From positions 62,001 to 126,000 of the forward strand of contig PLCN01000019.1 of NCBI GenBank assembly GCA_003134785.1: 64,000 nt of DNA, given 5' to 3'. Each line of letters begins with the position of its first letter. The first letter of the stretch is position 1. The translations under genes and the position numbers were made by a program. This document shows positions 16,092-28,024 of the stretch, piece after piece. The notes below the pieces were generated by a model. That model saw only the letters and a program-made list of their open reading frames with translations, was not told the origin of the DNA and ran no database searches. The DNA comes from Spartobacteria bacterium. GTDB lineage: Bacteria; Verrucomicrobiota; Verrucomicrobiia; Chthoniobacterales; UBA10450.

Positions 16092-16161
16092 TGGAAGGAG
16101 TGGAACCTCGCAAAATCCCAATTGAACAGCTATTGTAGAAGCAGTGTCAAAGTGCCCTGTC

Positions 16162-17643
16162 ATGCGTACCGCAGTTCAAATCCTCGCCCTCGTGGTCGCA
16201 TCCTATTCCTTGCGCGCCGCGCCCCCGCTCGCCCAACCCGAAGCCTCGCCCAGCCCGACGGTCTCGGCAGCAGCGGCCGATGCAGGAAAGGATGTCGTCC
16301 ACCAACTCAACAGCGCTTTCACGAAAGTTTTCGAAATCATCGCGCCCAGCGTCGTGATCATTGAAGTCACGAAGAAAAACGAATCGAGCGAGAACCCCAG
16401 CCTCGACGATCTCTTCTTCCAAGGCCCCCAGGATGAAGATGCGCCTCGCCGGAATCCACGCAGTTCTCAGCCGATCCAAAGCGAAGGCTCAGGATTCATC
16501 GTGCGCGCGGACGGCTACATCTACACCAATTATCATGTGGTCGAAGGCGCCGATCGAATAGACGTGAAGCTCAAAGACGGCCGCGAATTTCAGGCGAAGA
16601 TCGTGGGCACGGATGAAAAAACAGATGTGGCGGTGATTAAGATCGAGGCCGGGAATTTGCCCTTCGCGCAATTTGCCGATAGCGACGCGGTGCGCGTGGG
16701 GCAGTTTGCTTTCGCGATTGGAGCGCCCTTCAAACTCGATTATACTTTCACCTACGGCGTGATCAGCGGGAAAGGCCGGAACAAATTGCTCGCGACCGCC
16801 GGCTACTCGATTTCGGATTATTTGCAGACCGATGCGTCGATCAACCCGGGCAACAGCGGCGGCCCGCTCTGCGACATCGACGGAAAAGTGGTCGGGATGA
16901 ACACGCTGATCAACGGGTTGAATCGGGGACTTGGTTTCGCGATCCCGAGCAACCTCACCAATGAAATCGGGCAGCAACTCATCGCCGGTCACAAGATTGT
17001 GCGGCCCTGGCTCGGCATCCGGATCGAATCACTCGGAGACGACCCGACCATCCGCGATTTGTTCAAGGGCCTCGACAAAGGCGTGGTCGTGCGCACGATC
17101 GAAGCCGACGCACCTGCCTATAAGAGCGACCTGCGGCCGTTCGATGTCATCACGCAAGTCGACAACGCCCCGGTCAGCAGCGACACCCAGCTTCAACGGG
17201 AGATTTTGAAAAAGAAAGTTGGCCAGAGCGTCGAGCTGACGGTGTGGCGGAAAGGCCAGACGCTCAAGATTGCGGTGACGACCGGAGAATTGCCTAACGA
17301 CATCTCCCGCGCGTCGAACGAGCTGACTCCGCCGGCGCCAACGAAGCCGGAAGACTCGACGAAGTTCGGATTGCAAGTGCAGGAGCTGACGAAGGAAGTC
17401 GCCGCGCGCCTGAAACTCAGCGTGCAGCAAGGCGTGATCGTGACGGACGTGGCGGAGAACAGTCTCGCCGCCGCCCAGGACATTCAGCGCGAAGACGTGA
17501 TCACGGAGGTGGACGGAAAAAGGGTGACGAACGTAGCGTCCTTTCGCGAGGCGCTCAACAAGGCCGACCCGCGCAAAGGCATCCTGCTCTATCTGGATCG
17601 CAAAGGGAGTAAGACCTTCGCGGTGTTGAAGGCCGGCAGTTGA
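16162..17643 (+). CDS. DegP/HtrA-type periplasmic serine protease with two PDZ domains
   Basis: 493 residues from the ATG at 16162; a GTG at 16144 is the alternative. Signal peptide (residues 1-20), trypsin-like domain with an intact triad: His125 (TNYHVVEG), Asp155 (KTDVAVIKI) and Ser232 (NPGNSGGPL). Two C-terminal PDZ domains follow (about 275-375 and 395-490). An Asp/Glu-rich segment after the signal (DEDAPRRNPRS) matches the LA loop of Do proteases. It degrades or refolds misfolded envelope proteins. It contrasts with the triad-less HtrA relative at 23726-24805. Confidence 0.93.
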   Translation: MRTAVQILALVVASYSLRAAPPLAQPEASPSPTVSAAAADAGKDVVHQLNSAFTKVFEIIAPSVVIIEVTKKNESSENPSLDDLFFQGPQDEDAPRRNPRSSQPIQSEGSGFIVRADGYIYTNYHVVEGADRIDVKLKDGREFQAKIVGTDEKTDVAVIKIEAGNLPFAQFADSDAVRVGQFAFAIGAPFKLDYTFTYGVISGKGRNKLLATAGYSISDYLQTDASINPGNSGGPLCDIDGKVVGMNTLINGLNRGLGFAIPSNLTNEIGQQLIAGHKIVRPWLGIRIESLGDDPTIRDLFKGLDKGVVVRTIEADAPAYKSDLRPFDVITQVDNAPVSSDTQLQREILKKKVGQSVELTVWRKGQTLKIAVTTGELPNDISRASNELTPPAPTKPEDSTKFGLQVQELTKEVAARLKLSVQQGVIVTDVAENSLAAAQDIQREDVITEVDGKRVTNVASFREALNKADPRKGILLYLDRKGSKTFAVLKAGS

Positions 17644-18803: not shown

Positions 18804-18867
18804 TGTAGAGGCGCTTGTGCCAAGGGCCTGGCCAACGAATCAGGCGCTTGGCACAAGCGCCTCTACA
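18804..18867. repeat. Perfect-arm inverted repeat between convergent genes (family R5)
   Basis: Arms TGTAGAGGCGCTTGTGCCAA and TTGGCACAAGCGCCTCTACA are exact inverses of each other over at least 20 nt. The right arm supplies the TAG stop (18863-18865) of the kinase-MurQ fusion. Suited to act as a bidirectional terminator. Confidence 0.88.
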
Positions 18868-20602
18868 TTCCCCGCAACGCTGCCCGCAAATTCCAATTGC
18901 ACCCGCGCAGTCGCTCGACCGCTTCGGCGTAATTACATTTCGCCAGTTCCGCCACCAGGCGCGCGGCGCGATCTCGAAGTTTCTCGTTCGACATCGCGAG
19001 ATCGATCATCAAGTTCCCGCGGACTTTGCCGAGCGCAACCATGGCTCCCGTGCTGAGAATATTGAGCGCGATTTTCGTGGCCGTGCCCGCCTTGAGGCGC
19101 GTGGAACCGGTCAGAATCTCCGGCCCGGTTTCAAGATCGATCTCGAGGTCGAAACTTTCCGTCCGCGCTCGCGCCGGATTACAGGTGAGCAAAATCGTTT
19201 TGGCGCCACGAGCCTTCGCTTCCACGAGCGCGCCGAGCACGAAAGGAGTCCGGCCACTCGCGCTGATTCCGCAGACGACGTCCGCACCGCTCCCGCCCCT
19301 TTCATTGATCGCGAGCGCGCCGCCGCCGCGATCGTCTTCCGCGCCTTCGACGCCGCGCTGAAGCGCCGCGGCGCCTCCCGCGACAATTCCTTGAACCATT
19401 TCGGGCGAGGCGCCGAACGTCGGTGGGATCTCGCTCGCGTCCAGCACGCCGAGACGTCCACTCGTTCCAGCGCCGACGTAAAACAAGCGCCCGCCTTTCT
19501 GCAGCACGCCACTCACCATTTCGATGCCGCGCGCCAGCCCCGCGGCTTCTTTGCGCAAAGCGTCCGCAACGCAATTTTCTTCGGCCACGAAAAGCTCGAC
19601 CAAATCTTGCGCGCTCAATTTCTCCAAATTTTCCGAACGCGGATTACGTTGCTCGGTCAGCGCAGAGGAAAGCTCGGCGATATTTTCTTCGCGTGTTGGC
19701 GGATGTGCTTCGATTCGCTCTTCGGTTTCCGCCGCCAGCCAGGCCGCGCCGAGTTCCGGCGCCTGGTCGCTCATCGCCACGCGAGCATCGGGCATATTTT
19801 TCTTCAACCTGCGACGAAACGCGTGCGTATAAACCGAATCGCGCTGAAAAAGGCCGCCGAGCAACATCACTTTCGGCGCGAGCAAATGCAGCCGCGTCGC
19901 GACCGCCTCCGTGTATTCGGTCAGAACGCACGCGCCTTCCTCGATGATTTTCACGGCGTTTACCTCGCCGTTCATCGCCGCCTCGAAAACAATCGGAGCC
20001 AGCGTGGCGACTTCCATTTTGTCCGCTGTCTGTGCCCAGCGCACGAGTTCGTCCCGATTGTTCAACGCCAGAGCGCGCAAAATGTCGGCGGTGAAATGCG
20101 CCTCGCCACGATGCAAATCGTATTCGCGCAAAATGAGACGCAACGCTTGGACCGAAAGAAAATAACCGCCACCGGCGTCGCCCAAAATATGGCCCCAACC
20201 TCCAGCTTTCTCGATCCGATCGCCGCGGCGGCCCGTGACGGAAGCGCCGGTCCCGGCGTTGACGACAATTCCATCGCCACGGCCCAAGGCTGCCGCCAGC
20301 CCGGAATCGCGATCGCTTCCAACGACGACTTTCGCCTTTGGCCAGATTTCCGAGCAAAGATTTGCCAGCGAATGGTGATCATCGGGTCCGCAACCGGCGA
20401 GAAACATTCCGACGCGATCGACCTCCTGCGGCAGTTGCCGAAAAATCGCGCGCAAGCGTTCGGGCGAAGTCAGGCGAAAATTTGAAGACGGAAGCGTCCC
20501 TTGATCGACGACACGCAAACCCTCCACGCCGCGTCCCACCAGGGCCCACGCGGTTTTCGTTCCTCCGCCTTCGACACCGAGGATTCGCTCTGAGGATTCC
20601 AT
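18863..20602 (-). CDS. murQ: Fused BadF/MurK-type sugar kinase and MurNAc-6-phosphate etherase (MurQ)
   Basis: 579 residues. Residues 1-300 are a BadF/BadG-type ATPase fold: GVEGGGTKT phosphate loop, NAGTGASVTG and GGWGHILGDAGGGYF. This resembles MurK, which phosphorylates MurNAc and GlcNAc. Residues 315-579 are MurQ: GAGTSGRLGVLDASEIPPTF with the catalytic Glu, VEGAEDD with the second Glu, and GISASGRTPFVLGAL. MurQ cleaves the lactyl ether of MurNAc-6-P to give GlcNAc-6-P. The two steps are therefore joined in one chain for peptidoglycan recycling; NagA at 42.9-44.0 kb performs the next step. The stop codon is contributed by the adjoining inverted repeat. Confidence 0.92.
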   Translation of the reverse strand: MESSERILGVEGGGTKTAWALVGRGVEGLRVVDQGTLPSSNFRLTSPERLRAIFRQLPQEVDRVGMFLAGCGPDDHHSLANLCSEIWPKAKVVVGSDRDSGLAAALGRGDGIVVNAGTGASVTGRRGDRIEKAGGWGHILGDAGGGYFLSVQALRLILREYDLHRGEAHFTADILRALALNNRDELVRWAQTADKMEVATLAPIVFEAAMNGEVNAVKIIEEGACVLTEYTEAVATRLHLLAPKVMLLGGLFQRDSVYTHAFRRRLKKNMPDARVAMSDQAPELGAAWLAAETEERIEAHPPTREENIAELSSALTEQRNPRSENLEKLSAQDLVELFVAEENCVADALRKEAAGLARGIEMVSGVLQKGGRLFYVGAGTSGRLGVLDASEIPPTFGASPEMVQGIVAGGAAALQRGVEGAEDDRGGGALAINERGGSGADVVCGISASGRTPFVLGALVEAKARGAKTILLTCNPARARTESFDLEIDLETGPEILTGSTRLKAGTATKIALNILSTGAMVALGKVRGNLMIDLAMSNEKLRDRAARLVAELAKCNYAEAVERLRGCNWNLRAALRGM

Positions 20603-22799: not shown

Positions 22800-23648
22800 G
22801 TGACTGAATCATTTCCCCCTGCGGACGGCTTGCCTCCTCTTCCCGATCAAACGCCTGTCGTCGGGCAAACGAAGCGCTGGCGTTGGTGGATCCATCTCAC
22901 CCTGATCGGCGCATATCCCCTGCTCGGAATGGCGCTGCGGACCGCGACCGGTTCTGTGGCGAGCGGACCGGCGTTGTCAGGGAACGTGCGCGGTTTGCTC
23001 ATCGTCTCCGGCGTTGAGATCGTTTTGTTCTCGCTGGTCTTCGGTCTCGGCTGGCTCGCCTCCCGCGCTTCACGCGAAGAATTATTATTCCGCTGGCGGC
23101 CGGGCTGGTGGGTCCTGCCGCTGGGGATAGCCTATTCCGTGGCAATTCGCCTGGCGCTGGTGGTGGTGATCGCCGTCGTCGTCCTCATCGTCCTGGCGAC
23201 TCAAACTGCTACACCGGAAACGATGCAAGGATTCGTTCAGGCAAATCGCCCTGACGTAGAAACGCTGGTCAGTGTTCCTGCGATGCGAAATGACCCGGCC
23301 TATTTTTGGCTTACCTTGACGCTGGTGAGTTTCGTCGTCGCTGGGCTGCGCGAGGAAATCTGGCGCGCCGGCACTCTCGCCGCCATGCGCGCGCTCTGGC
23401 CTGGGGCGTTTGCGTCCCGGGCCGGACAATGCGTGGCCGTGACTTTGATCGCGGTTCTCTTCGGCGCCATGCATTTAGGGATGGGACCGATTGCCGCCGT
23501 CATGGCCGGAGTGCTCGGCTTGCTGCTTGGGCTGATCATGATTTTGCACAAATCGATCTGGCCGGCGGTGATTGCGCACGGTCTCTTCGATGCGACTACG
23601 CTCGCGATATTGCCGTGGTCCCTGGAAAAGCTTCACCACGTCCGCTGA
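22800..23648 (+). CDS. CPBP-family intramembrane metalloprotease
   Basis: 282 residues starting at GTG, about eight membrane helices. The three CPBP (Abi/CAAX protease-like) motifs are present: LREEIWRAG (Glu185, Glu186, Arg189), FGAMHLG (His225) and AHGLFDATT (His near 262). These residues form the metal and catalytic site in the Rce1/CPBP family. Substrate unknown; relatives process prenylated proteins, peptides or membrane-bound regulators. It follows ligA by 55 nt and faces the triad-less HtrA gene. Confidence 0.88.
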   Translation: MTESFPPADGLPPLPDQTPVVGQTKRWRWWIHLTLIGAYPLLGMALRTATGSVASGPALSGNVRGLLIVSGVEIVLFSLVFGLGWLASRASREELLFRWRPGWWVLPLGIAYSVAIRLALVVVIAVVVLIVLATQTATPETMQGFVQANRPDVETLVSVPAMRNDPAYFWLTLTLVSFVVAGLREEIWRAGTLAAMRALWPGAFASRAGQCVAVTLIAVLFGAMHLGMGPIAAVMAGVLGLLLGLIMILHKSIWPAVIAHGLFDATTLAILPWSLEKLHHVR

Positions 23649-23725: not shown

Positions 23726-24805
23726 TTACGGCTTTCGCCGGGTGGCATCGAGCTGAAGCGGGATTCCGTCGTGCGGCGTGAGCGTGGCTGCTCTGGGAGA
23801 ATGATGACTGGCCGGATGGAAATCGGCCTGGATCTCGAAAGTCAGTTTTTCGTCCCCGCGCCACACGATAATTGGAATCGTGTCGCCCGCCGTGAGAAAA
23901 AATGAAGCGTCAATGACGTCTTCCGGCTCGTGCACTTTCGTATTGCCGACTTGAAGAAGAATGTCGCCCGTCTTGACCCCCGACCCGAAAGCGGGCGTGT
24001 CTTTCATGATCTCCGTCATCTCGGCGCTGGAACCTTCCACCGCTTTCTCAGCCGCAGCGACATTGATTCCGATCCAGCCGTGGCGTGCTTCGCCAAAGCG
24101 GATGAAGTCGTTGTGAATCTTTTCCGCGGCATCGATGGGCAGAGCGTAACAAGCCGAACCATTGTCGATGTTGGCGACGAGAATGCCGACGACTTCGCCT
24201 TTGAAATTCAACAGCGGCGCCCCGGCTTCGCCTCTTTGCGTGGGCAGATTTACGCGCAGATGCGTCGTGGTAAAATAATGGCCAAGAAATTTCCGATCGA
24301 ACCCGGCGATCATTCCGAAGCTGGGCGTTTCCGGAAGGTCGAGCGGATAACCGATCGTAATCACCGGCGTGGCGACTTCGATTGGTTGCGATTTCCCGAT
24401 GGGCAGGGCCGGCGTGGCGATATCGATTTTCAAGAGCGCGATGCCGCTCCGAAAATCCGATAGAATGACGCGCGCCGGATATTCCTTGCCCTCGAATTCG
24501 ACCTTGACGTTTTCCGTGTCGCCTCCGACGGAAAAGGCGGTGTAAAGCGTTCCGGCAGGATCGATGAAAAAGCCGGTGCCGGAGAGTTCCCCATACTGGT
24601 CGGTCCCGCGGATCTTCACCACGGCTTTGGCCGATTTGTCGAAAACGTCTTTGACCTCGCGGCTGATTGAGCTGCTGGAAGGCGCCTCCTCCGCGCGAGC
24701 CAACGCAACGATGGTTGAAAACGTCAGCGCGAGGACGAACCGGGACACCACGAAGGAAAGCGGGCCGGATTCCAACGCCCGACTAGAAACGGAAAGCGGC
24801 CTCAT
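23726..24805 (-). CDS. HtrA-like S1 domain plus PDZ protein lacking the catalytic triad
   Basis: 359 residues with an N-terminal signal or anchor (residues 14-38). The S1 fold is easy to align with HtrA: SGTGFFIDPAGTLYT, GIALLKID, GAPLLNFKGEVVGI. All three catalytic residues are replaced: Ser92 for His (TAFSVGG), Gly121 for Asp (RSGIALL) and Ala194 for Ser (GEAGAPL). A PDZ domain follows (about 240-330). It should bind peptides or misfolded proteins but not cleave them. The gene overlaps the anti-sigma-like gene by 23 nt and sits in the same operon as the sigma factor, which suggests a sensing role. Confidence 0.87.
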   Translation of the reverse strand: MRPLSVSSRALESGPLSFVVSRFVLALTFSTIVALARAEEAPSSSSISREVKDVFDKSAKAVVKIRGTDQYGELSGTGFFIDPAGTLYTAFSVGGDTENVKVEFEGKEYPARVILSDFRSGIALLKIDIATPALPIGKSQPIEVATPVITIGYPLDLPETPSFGMIAGFDRKFLGHYFTTTHLRVNLPTQRGEAGAPLLNFKGEVVGILVANIDNGSACYALPIDAAEKIHNDFIRFGEARHGWIGINVAAAEKAVEGSSAEMTEIMKDTPAFGSGVKTGDILLQVGNTKVHEPEDVIDASFFLTAGDTIPIIVWRGDEKLTFEIQADFHPASHHSPRAATLTPHDGIPLQLDATRRKP

Positions 24806-25274
24806 AACTCACAGGCGGGCTATCGAGAACGTAGCGCGGAGGCGTCGCGGAACGGTGAGTTTGGGTGATGTAACTGACATTGCGCAGGAGTTTCGGACCC
24901 AAATCACGCGCCGTGAACGGCGATGACAAACTCAAGGCCGTCTCGGGCAACGCCGTGGCAGTAACGGGTGCGCGATTCTCGGCCGCGACATTCACGGTCT
25001 GCGGAGTCTGATACATCTTCAAGGAAATGACTGCCGCGCAAACCAGGACCGCGGTGACCGCCGCAGGATAGGAAGTGAGCGCCGGAACGTTCAGGCGGAA
25101 CATGAAATCCTGGGCCCGTTGAAGGCAGATCCGCCAAACCGGCTGGCGCAATAATTCGTCACGCTGCCGGCGATGAAATTCGTGCAGAAAATTATCGAAG
25201 TAGCCCGGCGGCGGTTGCTCGTGCCGTTTCAGACGCAACAATTTGCCGATATCTTCTTCGTTAAACTGGTTCAT
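24783..25274 (-). CDS. Putative anti-sigma factor, single-pass membrane protein
   Basis: 163 residues. The soluble N-terminal half has LLRLKRHEQPPPGYFDNFL and FHRRQRDELLRQPVW; a membrane helix is at about residues 67-86 (SYPAAVTAVLVCAAVISLKM); the C-terminal part is extracytoplasmic. It begins 29 nt after the sigma factor stop, the usual place for an anti-sigma factor. I see no zinc-binding HXXXCXXC motif, so the assignment rests on topology and position. Confidence 0.65.
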   Translation of the reverse strand: MNQFNEEDIGKLLRLKRHEQPPPGYFDNFLHEFHRRQRDELLRQPVWRICLQRAQDFMFRLNVPALTSYPAAVTAVLVCAAVISLKMYQTPQTVNVAAENRAPVTATALPETALSLSSPFTARDLGPKLLRNVSYITQTHRSATPPRYVLDSPPVSYEAAFRF

Positions 25275-26019: not shown

Positions 26020-26727
26020 TCAGCGGCGATCGCGCACCGACATGAGCCAGAGCAAGTTGCCGAGTGTGGCGATGAATGCGGCCACATACGTCAGCGCGGC
26101 TGCGTTCAGGACCTTGTTGACCCCGGCGACTTCATTGCCCGGCTGCACGATTCCCATCTGTTGCAGAATAATCTTCGCCCGACGCGAAGCGTCGAATTCC
26201 ACCGGCAGGGTGATCAACTGGAAGGCCAACAGGATCATGTAGCAATAAATGCCGAGCGTAATCAGCCCGGTCATGTGGAAAATGAATCCGCCGAAAATGA
26301 TGAAGGGCAACATTTGCGACGCGATCTGTGTCACGGGCACAATGGCCATGCGCGCCTTGAGCGGGGCGTACGCTTTCGCATGTTGAATGGCGTGGCCGGT
26401 TTCGTGCGCCGCAATGCCGAGCGCCGCGACGGACGGCGTGTTGTAGACATTCGTCGAAAGGCACAGGCGTTTGCTCGTCGGATCGTAATGATCGCCGAGG
26501 TAGTCGTTGATCTCGAGGACCTGGACGTCATGGATTTGCGCCGCCTGCAGAATTTCGCGGGCCGCTTCGGCGCCAGTGATGTTTGAGCTGGCCCGAACCT
26601 CGCCCCACTTTTTGAAAGCATGGCTCACCCGCCATTGCGCCAAAAGCCCGATGATGAGCGGCACGCCAACCAGCAGGAGCCAGTTGTTGCCGTAAAACAT
26701 TCCCCCTCCGTAATAGTATGAAAGCAT
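26020..26727 (-). CDS. Membrane zinc metallopeptidase, YugP-like (Zn_peptidase_2)
   Basis: 235 residues with an N-terminal membrane helix (16-31), a zinc-peptidase motif HETGH at residues 108-112 (GIAAHETGHAIQHA), and several further membrane helices (about 130-170 and 205-230). This is the pattern of YugP/PF04298 proteins, whose substrates are largely unknown. It lies upstream of, and in the same direction as, the sigma/anti-sigma/HtrA-like genes; a role in processing the anti-sigma factor is a speculation from position only. Confidence 0.9.
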   Translation of the reverse strand: MLSYYYGGGMFYGNNWLLLVGVPLIIGLLAQWRVSHAFKKWGEVRASSNITGAEAAREILQAAQIHDVQVLEINDYLGDHYDPTSKRLCLSTNVYNTPSVAALGIAAHETGHAIQHAKAYAPLKARMAIVPVTQIASQMLPFIIFGGFIFHMTGLITLGIYCYMILLAFQLITLPVEFDASRRAKIILQQMGIVQPGNEVAGVNKVLNAAALTYVAAFIATLGNLLWLMSVRDRR

Positions 26728-26854: not shown

Positions 26855-26890
26855 TGTCTGGAGAATTAGACGCCCGAAGGGGCGCTTCGT

Positions 26891-28024
26891 TCAGATTTCC
26901 AGCCGCTTCTCGAAACGCGACAGCATTCTGGTCCCGGTCTTCGTCACGACCACGACATCTTCCACCCGCGCTCCGCCGATTCCCGGATAATAGAGACCGG
27001 GCTCGACCGTAAGCACTTGCCCCTGTTTGAAGACGGTTTTTTGAAACCGCGGAAATTCATGGATCTCAAGACCGAGACCGTGCCCGGTGCCGTGGAAAAA
27101 TCCTACCTGCCGGCCGTCCCGCACTTCCGTGGGGAAACCGCGGTCGGTGAAAAATTTCTTCACTTCATTGTGCAATTCCAATCCATCGACGCCGGGCTTC
27201 ATTTTCTTGAGCGCCAAGGTTTGACCTTCCCGCACGGTTTCCCAAAGCCGGCGTTGTTCGTCACTGGCGCGGCCCCGAACGACCGTTCGCGTCAGATCCC
27301 CAAAATAACCGCTCTTCGCGTCACGGGGGAAAATGTCGAGGATTACGAGCGAATCCGCCTTGAGCGGGCCGAAGCCGCGCTCGTGGGGATCGCAGGCCTG
27401 ATCGCCACCGGCCACGATCGTGTTCGCCGGAAGTCCGCCGGCCCGCAAAATCGCCGAATCGATTTCGGCGCGCAGAATTTCGGAGGTCAGAGTTCGTCCC
27501 GACCAGGAGAGCTTCTTGCCTGGACCAGGTTTGGACGCCCCGAGAACTTCCATGGCGCGCGCCAATCCTTTTTCGGTGATGGCGAGAGCGCGACACATCA
27601 GTTGCAATTCGTCGTCCGATTTCGCTTCGCGTTCCGGCCAGAAAAGTCCGTTGGTCGCGCGCAGTCGAATTTTGTGCGGGGCCAGCTCCTCCGCATAGCC
27701 GAGTGGAAAATTCGCGGGAACAACGGCGGAGCGCACGCCCCGTTTCCGCAAAAAATGCGACATCACTTTTTCGAAAGGCGGCGCCTTCTTTTGTTTCCCC
27801 TGCACTTCCCGCTCGAATTGGCTGTAGGAAACAATCTCGTCAGCCTGCGCCTGCTTTCGTCCGCGATCGATCTCGAGATCGCTGAGCACGATGGTGCGCT
27901 TGCCGTTTTGCTCGAGGAAAATAAACGGATCGGGCACAAAGAACTTCGTCGCGTAAAGCATATCCGGATCGTGCTCGCTGGCTGCGACGATGAGACGAGT
28001 TTCGTTTTTCTTGCGCTTGCTCAT
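26891..28024 (-). CDS. M24-family aminopeptidase P / Xaa-Pro peptidase-like
   Basis: 377 residues. An N-terminal creatinase-like domain (about 1-135) precedes the pita-bread catalytic domain. Metal ligands are visible: Asp in LVILDIFPRD, Asp in GYFGDLTRT, His in GTGHGLGLEIHE, Glu in VEPGLYYPG and Glu in GARVEDVVVV. It removes N-terminal residues before proline or acts on dipeptides. Downstream of an R2 repeat and transcribed alone. Confidence 0.9.
   Translation of the reverse strand: MSKRKKNETRLIVAASEHDPDMLYATKFFVPDPFIFLEQNGKRTIVLSDLEIDRGRKQAQADEIVSYSQFEREVQGKQKKAPPFEKVMSHFLRKRGVRSAVVPANFPLGYAEELAPHKIRLRATNGLFWPEREAKSDDELQLMCRALAITEKGLARAMEVLGASKPGPGKKLSWSGRTLTSEILRAEIDSAILRAGGLPANTIVAGGDQACDPHERGFGPLKADSLVILDIFPRDAKSGYFGDLTRTVVRGRASDEQRRLWETVREGQTLALKKMKPGVDGLELHNEVKKFFTDRGFPTEVRDGRQVGFFHGTGHGLGLEIHEFPRFQKTVFKQGQVLTVEPGLYYPGIGGARVEDVVVVTKTGTRMLSRFEKRLEI

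Follow-up and report, generated by a model that had tools for sequence, protein, structure and literature searches.

A conserved HtrA pseudoprotease in a putative envelope stress operon of Verrucomicrobiota

Introduction

Throughout a class of Verrucomicrobiota, an HtrA-family protein devoid of its catalytic triad (hereafter pseudo-HtrA) is encoded next to an ECF sigma factor and an anti-sigma-like membrane protein with a conserved C-terminal tail, a combination which suggests that envelope damage is sensed by binding and not by cutting. DegS is the textbook protease sensing unfolded outer membrane proteins (OMPs). The operon described here may form the regulatory core of a sigma-E-like response to OMP stress. 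The place of DegS would be taken in it by a pseudoprotease, with the anti-sigma tail bound in its PDZ domain, a reading which we regard as evenly poised. The broader proposal, that much of the Verrucomicrobiota handles OMP stress through a binding switch, where the PDZ domain of a dead DegS relative holds an OMP-mimicking tail, OMPs compete for it and the HtrA never cuts, is tentative, and our judgement leans slightly against it.

A relative of the DegS module which has lost all catalytic residues, but kept the PDZ domain and a matching tail, would separate sensing from cutting and raises the question of which protease, if any, initiates destruction of the anti-sigma protein. Moreover, an abundant and mostly uncultured soil group, whose relatives include Candidatus Udaeobacter, would gain a defined regulon for envelope stress, whose motif and targets are testable.

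Results

Gene structure and catalytic positions

The window, i.e., the whole stretch of 64,000 nucleotides analysed here, belongs to a genome of 4.39 Mb that is 97% complete. In the direction of transcription its minus strand carries the genes of an M24 peptidase, a PF04298 metallopeptidase, the ECF sigma factor, a 163-aa protein and pseudo-HtrA, while an intact HtrA lies on the plus strand.

26891-28024, minus strand: M24 peptidase, gene preceding the PF04298 gene
26020..26727, minus strand: PF04298 membrane metallopeptidase (Pfam), opening the operon in the family of the window genome
25304..26020, minus strand: RpoE-like ECF sigma factor (NCBIfam), the true start possibly inside the frame
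24783..25274, minus strand: anti-sigma-like protein of 163 aa with a single predicted membrane helix (residues 70-89, 25008-25067), anti-sigma role presumed
23726..24805, minus strand: pseudo-HtrA gene, with N-terminal hydrophobic stretch, Trypsin_2 (24182-24580) and a single PDZ (23831-24076)
24530..24532, minus strand: codon of Ser92, at the triad His position (alignment to active HtrAs)
24443..24445, minus strand: codon of Gly121, at the triad Asp position (same alignment)
24224..24226, minus strand: codon of Ala194, at the triad Ser position (same alignment)
16144..17643, plus strand: intact HtrA (HDS at the triad positions), candidate site-1 protease by nearness only

The pseudo-HtrA frame comprises 359 aa, and the plus strand has no open frame over 23726-24805. 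Matches to Trypsin_2 (residues 76-208, E 1.1e-17) and PDZ_2 (residues 244-325, E 2.8e-10) bear out the kept fold and PDZ domain of the first-pass annotation, and this succession of a trypsin-like and a PDZ domain, found by Pfam and Foldseek, marks a member of the HtrA family. The best Foldseek matches of the structural model were DegQ, M. tuberculosis HtrA and DegS; the model is of moderate confidence (mean pLDDT 65), with values below 50 near the former active site (residues 93-95 and 170-189). Scores against the NCBIfam DegS models remained under their cut-offs (TIGR02038, 77.9 bits, cut-off 423; NF008147, 91.3 bits, cut-off 408).

Instead of the His-Asp-Ser triad of active HtrA proteases, pseudo-HtrA presents Ser, Gly and Ala. 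That residues 92, 121 and 194 are the positions in question, as originally annotated, was confirmed by alignment to active HtrAs of related genomes and to E. coli DegS and DegQ. When 50 sequences from across the class were aligned, identity stayed under 90% in every His, Ser and Cys column, so that no alternative triad is visible among them; a misaligned or shifted triad was rejected on the grounds of both alignments. The earlier statement that the protein cannot cut is likewise supported, as far as sequences can tell, by the absence of the triad from every linked relative.

Around the dead site R119, S120, G121, H182, R184 and G192 are retained in at least 54 of 56 sequences of the order, as might be expected if the old catalytic groove had been repurposed to bind a ligand or the anti-sigma protein, with the PDZ domain playing a minor part. 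Class-wide, however, most of these positions drift, and besides Gly and Pro only D117 and R184 of this region exceed 90%, so that we hold a repurposed groove to be very unlikely. In the PDZ domain, W244 and G246 occur in 56/56 sequences of the order and the GWIG loop is conserved.

Operon and neighbouring proteases

The genes for the anti-sigma-like protein and pseudo-HtrA overlap by 23 nt, and an overlap is present in nearly all rows of the family. The trio of ECF sigma factor, anti-sigma-like protein and pseudo-HtrA is conserved in the order and spans the class; hence the single operon reported for the window holds well beyond it, and the DegS-like context is supported class-wide. The best NCBIfam model of the sigma factor is TIGR02939 RpoE (3.1e-38, 131.7 bits), albeit under the cut-off of 236, whereas the cut-off of the general model TIGR02937 sigma70-ECF is exceeded.

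The intact HtrA of the window lies 7 kb from the operon and faces it. By hand count, 15 of 25 genomes of the family carry an intact HtrA 4-11 kb away on the same contig, an arrangement that would suit an allosteric partnership, in which pseudo-HtrA recruits or activates the active HtrA, either by joining it in mixed trimers or by offering it the anti-sigma protein, and holding of the tail promotes cutting. A model for this exists in MamO: proteolysis by MamE is reported to require MamO, but not the active site of MamO (PMC4794232). Against such a partnership, the remaining 10 genomes have their intact HtrA on other contigs, and the conservation of the trio reaches far beyond the family of the window genome; we therefore consider it unlikely. 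In G000, contig C23 carries two Trypsin_2 matches 1.5 kb apart (~97190 and ~98722; L004 and L007), both HDS, divergent and on a long branch.

Loss of the triad across relatives

The triad is missing in all orthologues read from the genus, the family and the order (56 rows, one of them truncated before position 92), and the sigma-linked HtrAs that were read in further orders of this class are likewise without it. Orthologues keeping the triad were thus encountered at none of these levels, and decay confined to a single genome was rejected. Locus L176, which belongs to a different class of the phylum, shows DNN at the triad positions. The named relatives are mostly metagenome assemblies.

A non-redundant HtrA set of 109 rows was divided into 96 that are neither HDS nor HES and 13 that are HDS. 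Since the 96 were selected in this way, their residues describe the replacements and are no test of the loss: position 92 is S in 41, T in 27, A in 7, D in 6, G in 4, E in 3, N in 3, P in 2, L in 1 and I in 1 (one row is cut off), position 121 is G in 75, N in 15, S in 3, R in 2 and C in 1, and position 194 is still Ser in seven of the 96. For the same reason the neighbouring gene provides the independent test. An anti-sigma-like gene was found by profile within 250 nt of 88/96 triad-less rows versus 0/13 HDS rows, i.e., all 88 HtrA rows adjoining such a gene lack the triad. Among the other eight, L034, L073, L128 and L131 have an anti-sigma-like protein ending in F, L071, L138 and L150 stand at contig ends, and L123 has no anti-sigma-like gene.

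The disappearance of all three catalytic residues could in principle mark a functionless relic on its way out. This was refuted, and its probability is negligible, as the frames are intact across the class and dN/dS of pseudo-HtrA is 0.04-0.10 in five pairs, indicating purifying selection; a pseudogene was rejected on the same evidence. Because the 88 linked rows are all triad-less, none of the 13 intact HtrAs is so linked and dN/dS is this low, pseudo-HtrA is, judged from these sequences, a conserved family and not a product of decay.

In a phylogeny of 87 of 125 rows (IQ-TREE), 70 clade members were separated from 17 other HtrAs (16 HDS, one HES) with UFBoot 100; FastTree recovered the identical split with a local support of only 0.377. 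L004 and L007, which formed a very long branch, had been removed after the first tree. Deep members such as L127, L129 and L142 retain Ser without His or Asp, an indication, but no proof, that the loss of His and Asp preceded that of Ser.

In a class-wide profile search 85/141 genomes matched at E <= 1e-35. At E <= 1e-49, a threshold stricter than the best value among the HDS rows read (9e-44), 71 genomes (hand count) matched the pseudo-HtrA profile, the triad having been read in part of these 71. Among 240 genomes of the phylum a single one outside the class, G170, gave a match at the level of the clade (7e-76; L176), and the next-best matches outside the class that were read were HDS or HES.

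The anti-sigma-like protein and its tail

The 163-aa protein is encoded beside the sigma gene and has one membrane helix in addition to N-terminal helices, an arrangement from which we infer an anti-sigma factor holding the sigma factor at the membrane. A conserved N-terminal motif (LLRLKRxEQPPPGYF...EFHRRQR) precedes the membrane helix, and beyond the helix a variable linker leads to a conserved end. No Pfam family was found with support (E up to 1), and a fold search with a low-confidence query model (pTM 0.23) gave no PDB match.

24786..24836, minus strand: conserved C-terminal tail of the anti-sigma-like protein, RYVLDSPPVSYEAAFRF-COOH (alignment of relatives)

The family consensus of this end is RYVLDSxPVSYEPxFRF, and the window protein closes with AFRF-COOH. 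Mean identity to the window protein amounts to 0.35 in the linker but rises to 0.74 over the final 16 residues. Each of the 88 partners recovered with the profile terminates in an aromatic residue (F in 82, Y in 6), mostly with F, L, V or I at position -2, whereas the other proteins encoded at these loci (sigma, metallopeptidase, M24, ligase and HtrA) have variable ends or other residues. Another 11 anti-sigma-like tails were read by position; for L168 the choice lies between several overlapping frames.

The two Omp85 proteins of the window genome end in GYQF and GFAF, i.e., in aromatic-x-F. PDZ domains of AlgW and DegS are described as accepting aromatics at positions 0 and -2 (PMC8545111), and the titles of PDB entries among the Foldseek matches name DegS structures with YRF and YQF peptides. 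The anti-sigma-like tail, resembling the ends of OMPs and of DegS and AlgW ligands, is therefore a putative PDZ ligand. E. coli RseA ends in TQSQ, so that the proposed contact between tail and PDZ domain would have no direct precedent in the E. coli system. Inspection by eye of the last tail residue against the PDZ loop revealed no convincing co-variation.

Promoter-like motif and candidate targets

An alignment of the upstream regions of nine of 36 sequences, namely those in which the start-codon rule worked, yielded a promoter-like motif.

26866..26893, minus strand: promoter-like motif TGAAC-N17-GTCTAA, upstream of the operon (alignment of upstream regions)

It is present in 33/35 loci L038-L072; the contig of L049 starts within the sigma gene and that of L071 within the htrA gene. 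In the entire window genome it occurs exactly twice, before the operon and between bamA and the OmpH/Skp gene, and in relatives the same two targets are preceded by it. At least one match was found in 41/41 genomes of the family, with 100 in total (hand sum) versus 26 for the reversed pattern. Of 31 motif loci inspected, 11 belong to the operon, 11 to bamA-skp, four precede an HlyD-type membrane-fusion protein and five are others; the HlyD-type gene, with the motif in L199, L212, L215 and L217, is a possible third target. Because the motif stands before the sigma factor's own operon, the sigma factor presumably reads it. If so, a motif shared by the operon and skp would match a trait of sigma-E-type regulons, namely control of OMP assembly genes together with self-control. 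The E. coli sigma-E consensus had three matches in the 64-kb window, where 3.4 are expected.

Outside the family the motif is near background in the wider order, except for three of 23 loci, in which it precedes the PF04298 gene; these loci, L234, L235 and L236, belong to three genomes from a different family within the order. The PF04298 metallopeptidase may be part of the response, or may even be the missing site-1 protease.

The motif before skp, itself a chaperone gene, would also agree with pseudo-HtrA being a periplasmic holdase of OMP ends within the regulon, which makes no contact with the anti-sigma protein, the tail being read instead by an active HtrA, the BAM complex or a C-terminus-specific protease; proteolytically inactive HtrAs are reported to prevent aggregation (PMC11642142). 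Overlap with the anti-sigma-like gene in nearly all rows of the family and adjacency throughout the class exceed what a mere member of the regulon needs, and we judge a holdase of this kind quite unlikely. The role of a pure sensor or inhibitor, already envisaged in the first-pass annotation, fits the OMP-like tail, the kept PDZ domain and the motif before skp; the tail, the motif and the class-wide conservation are additions to that annotation.

Discussion

If the PDZ domain of pseudo-HtrA does hold the anti-sigma tail, the anti-sigma-like protein would keep the sigma factor at the membrane, while its periplasmic tail, mimicking an OMP C-terminus, would occupy the PDZ domain. Bound in this manner, pseudo-HtrA would shield the anti-sigma protein from periplasmic proteases, which is the part of RseB in E. 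coli. On accumulation of unfolded OMPs their aromatic-x-Phe ends would compete for the PDZ domain and release the tail, which a different protease might cut, the intact HtrA at a distance of 7 kb being a candidate, whereupon an RseP-type protease would complete degradation of the anti-sigma protein and the released sigma factor would turn on skp and its own operon. The role of RseB fits pseudo-HtrA, since an RseP-type M50 site-2 protease is encoded in the window genome (PF02163, 2.4e-47) and no PF03888 match, i.e., no RseB/MucB, was found in this 97% complete assembly.

With the E. coli envelope stress pathway RpoE-RseA-RseB-DegS, as outlined in PMC8103513 and PMC11642142, the proposed system shares an RpoE-like ECF sigma factor with a single-pass membrane partner, an HtrA with one PDZ domain that possibly senses aromatic C-termini, an RseP-type protease in the genome and a putative link to OMP assembly through skp. 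It differs in that pseudo-HtrA lacks the triad and is encoded inside the sigma operon, in that the anti-sigma-like protein, unlike RseA, bears the OMP-like C-terminus itself, and in the failure to find RseB in the window genome.

The AlgW/MucE/MucA system of P. aeruginosa resembles it in that an HtrA PDZ domain reads a Phe-ended C-terminus (WVF in MucE, according to PMC8545111). Unlike pseudo-HtrA, AlgW is an active protease, and its Phe-ended ligand is a separate activator and not the anti-sigma protein. A sigma/anti-sigma/HtrA operon exists in P. aeruginosa, and in the sigE-rseA-htrA operon of M. tuberculosis the three genes stand together as they do here, but the HtrA is an intact protease and the anti-sigma protein is of another type.

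Dead HtrAs as such are not new, because MamO is a documented HtrA pseudoprotease and, like other magnetosome HtrA pseudoproteases, is described as retained for a non-catalytic task (PMC4794232). As described there, MamO differs in binding metal, serving biomineralisation and retaining His and Asp (H116, D149, T225), and it has no sigma or anti-sigma partner. The variant of the module described here may be new, since no report of a triad-less HtrA in a sigma/anti-sigma operon was found in the open-licence literature searched, judged mostly from abstracts.

Close to the operon, a gene for a CAAX-type (Rce1-like) membrane protease (window 22800-23648, plus strand) is convergent with the pseudo-HtrA gene and is there in some relatives only. 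Judging from its motifs, the single long frame at 18863-20602 on the minus strand presumably encodes a fusion of a BadF-type N-acetylglucosamine kinase with a MurQ-type MurNAc-6-phosphate etherase.
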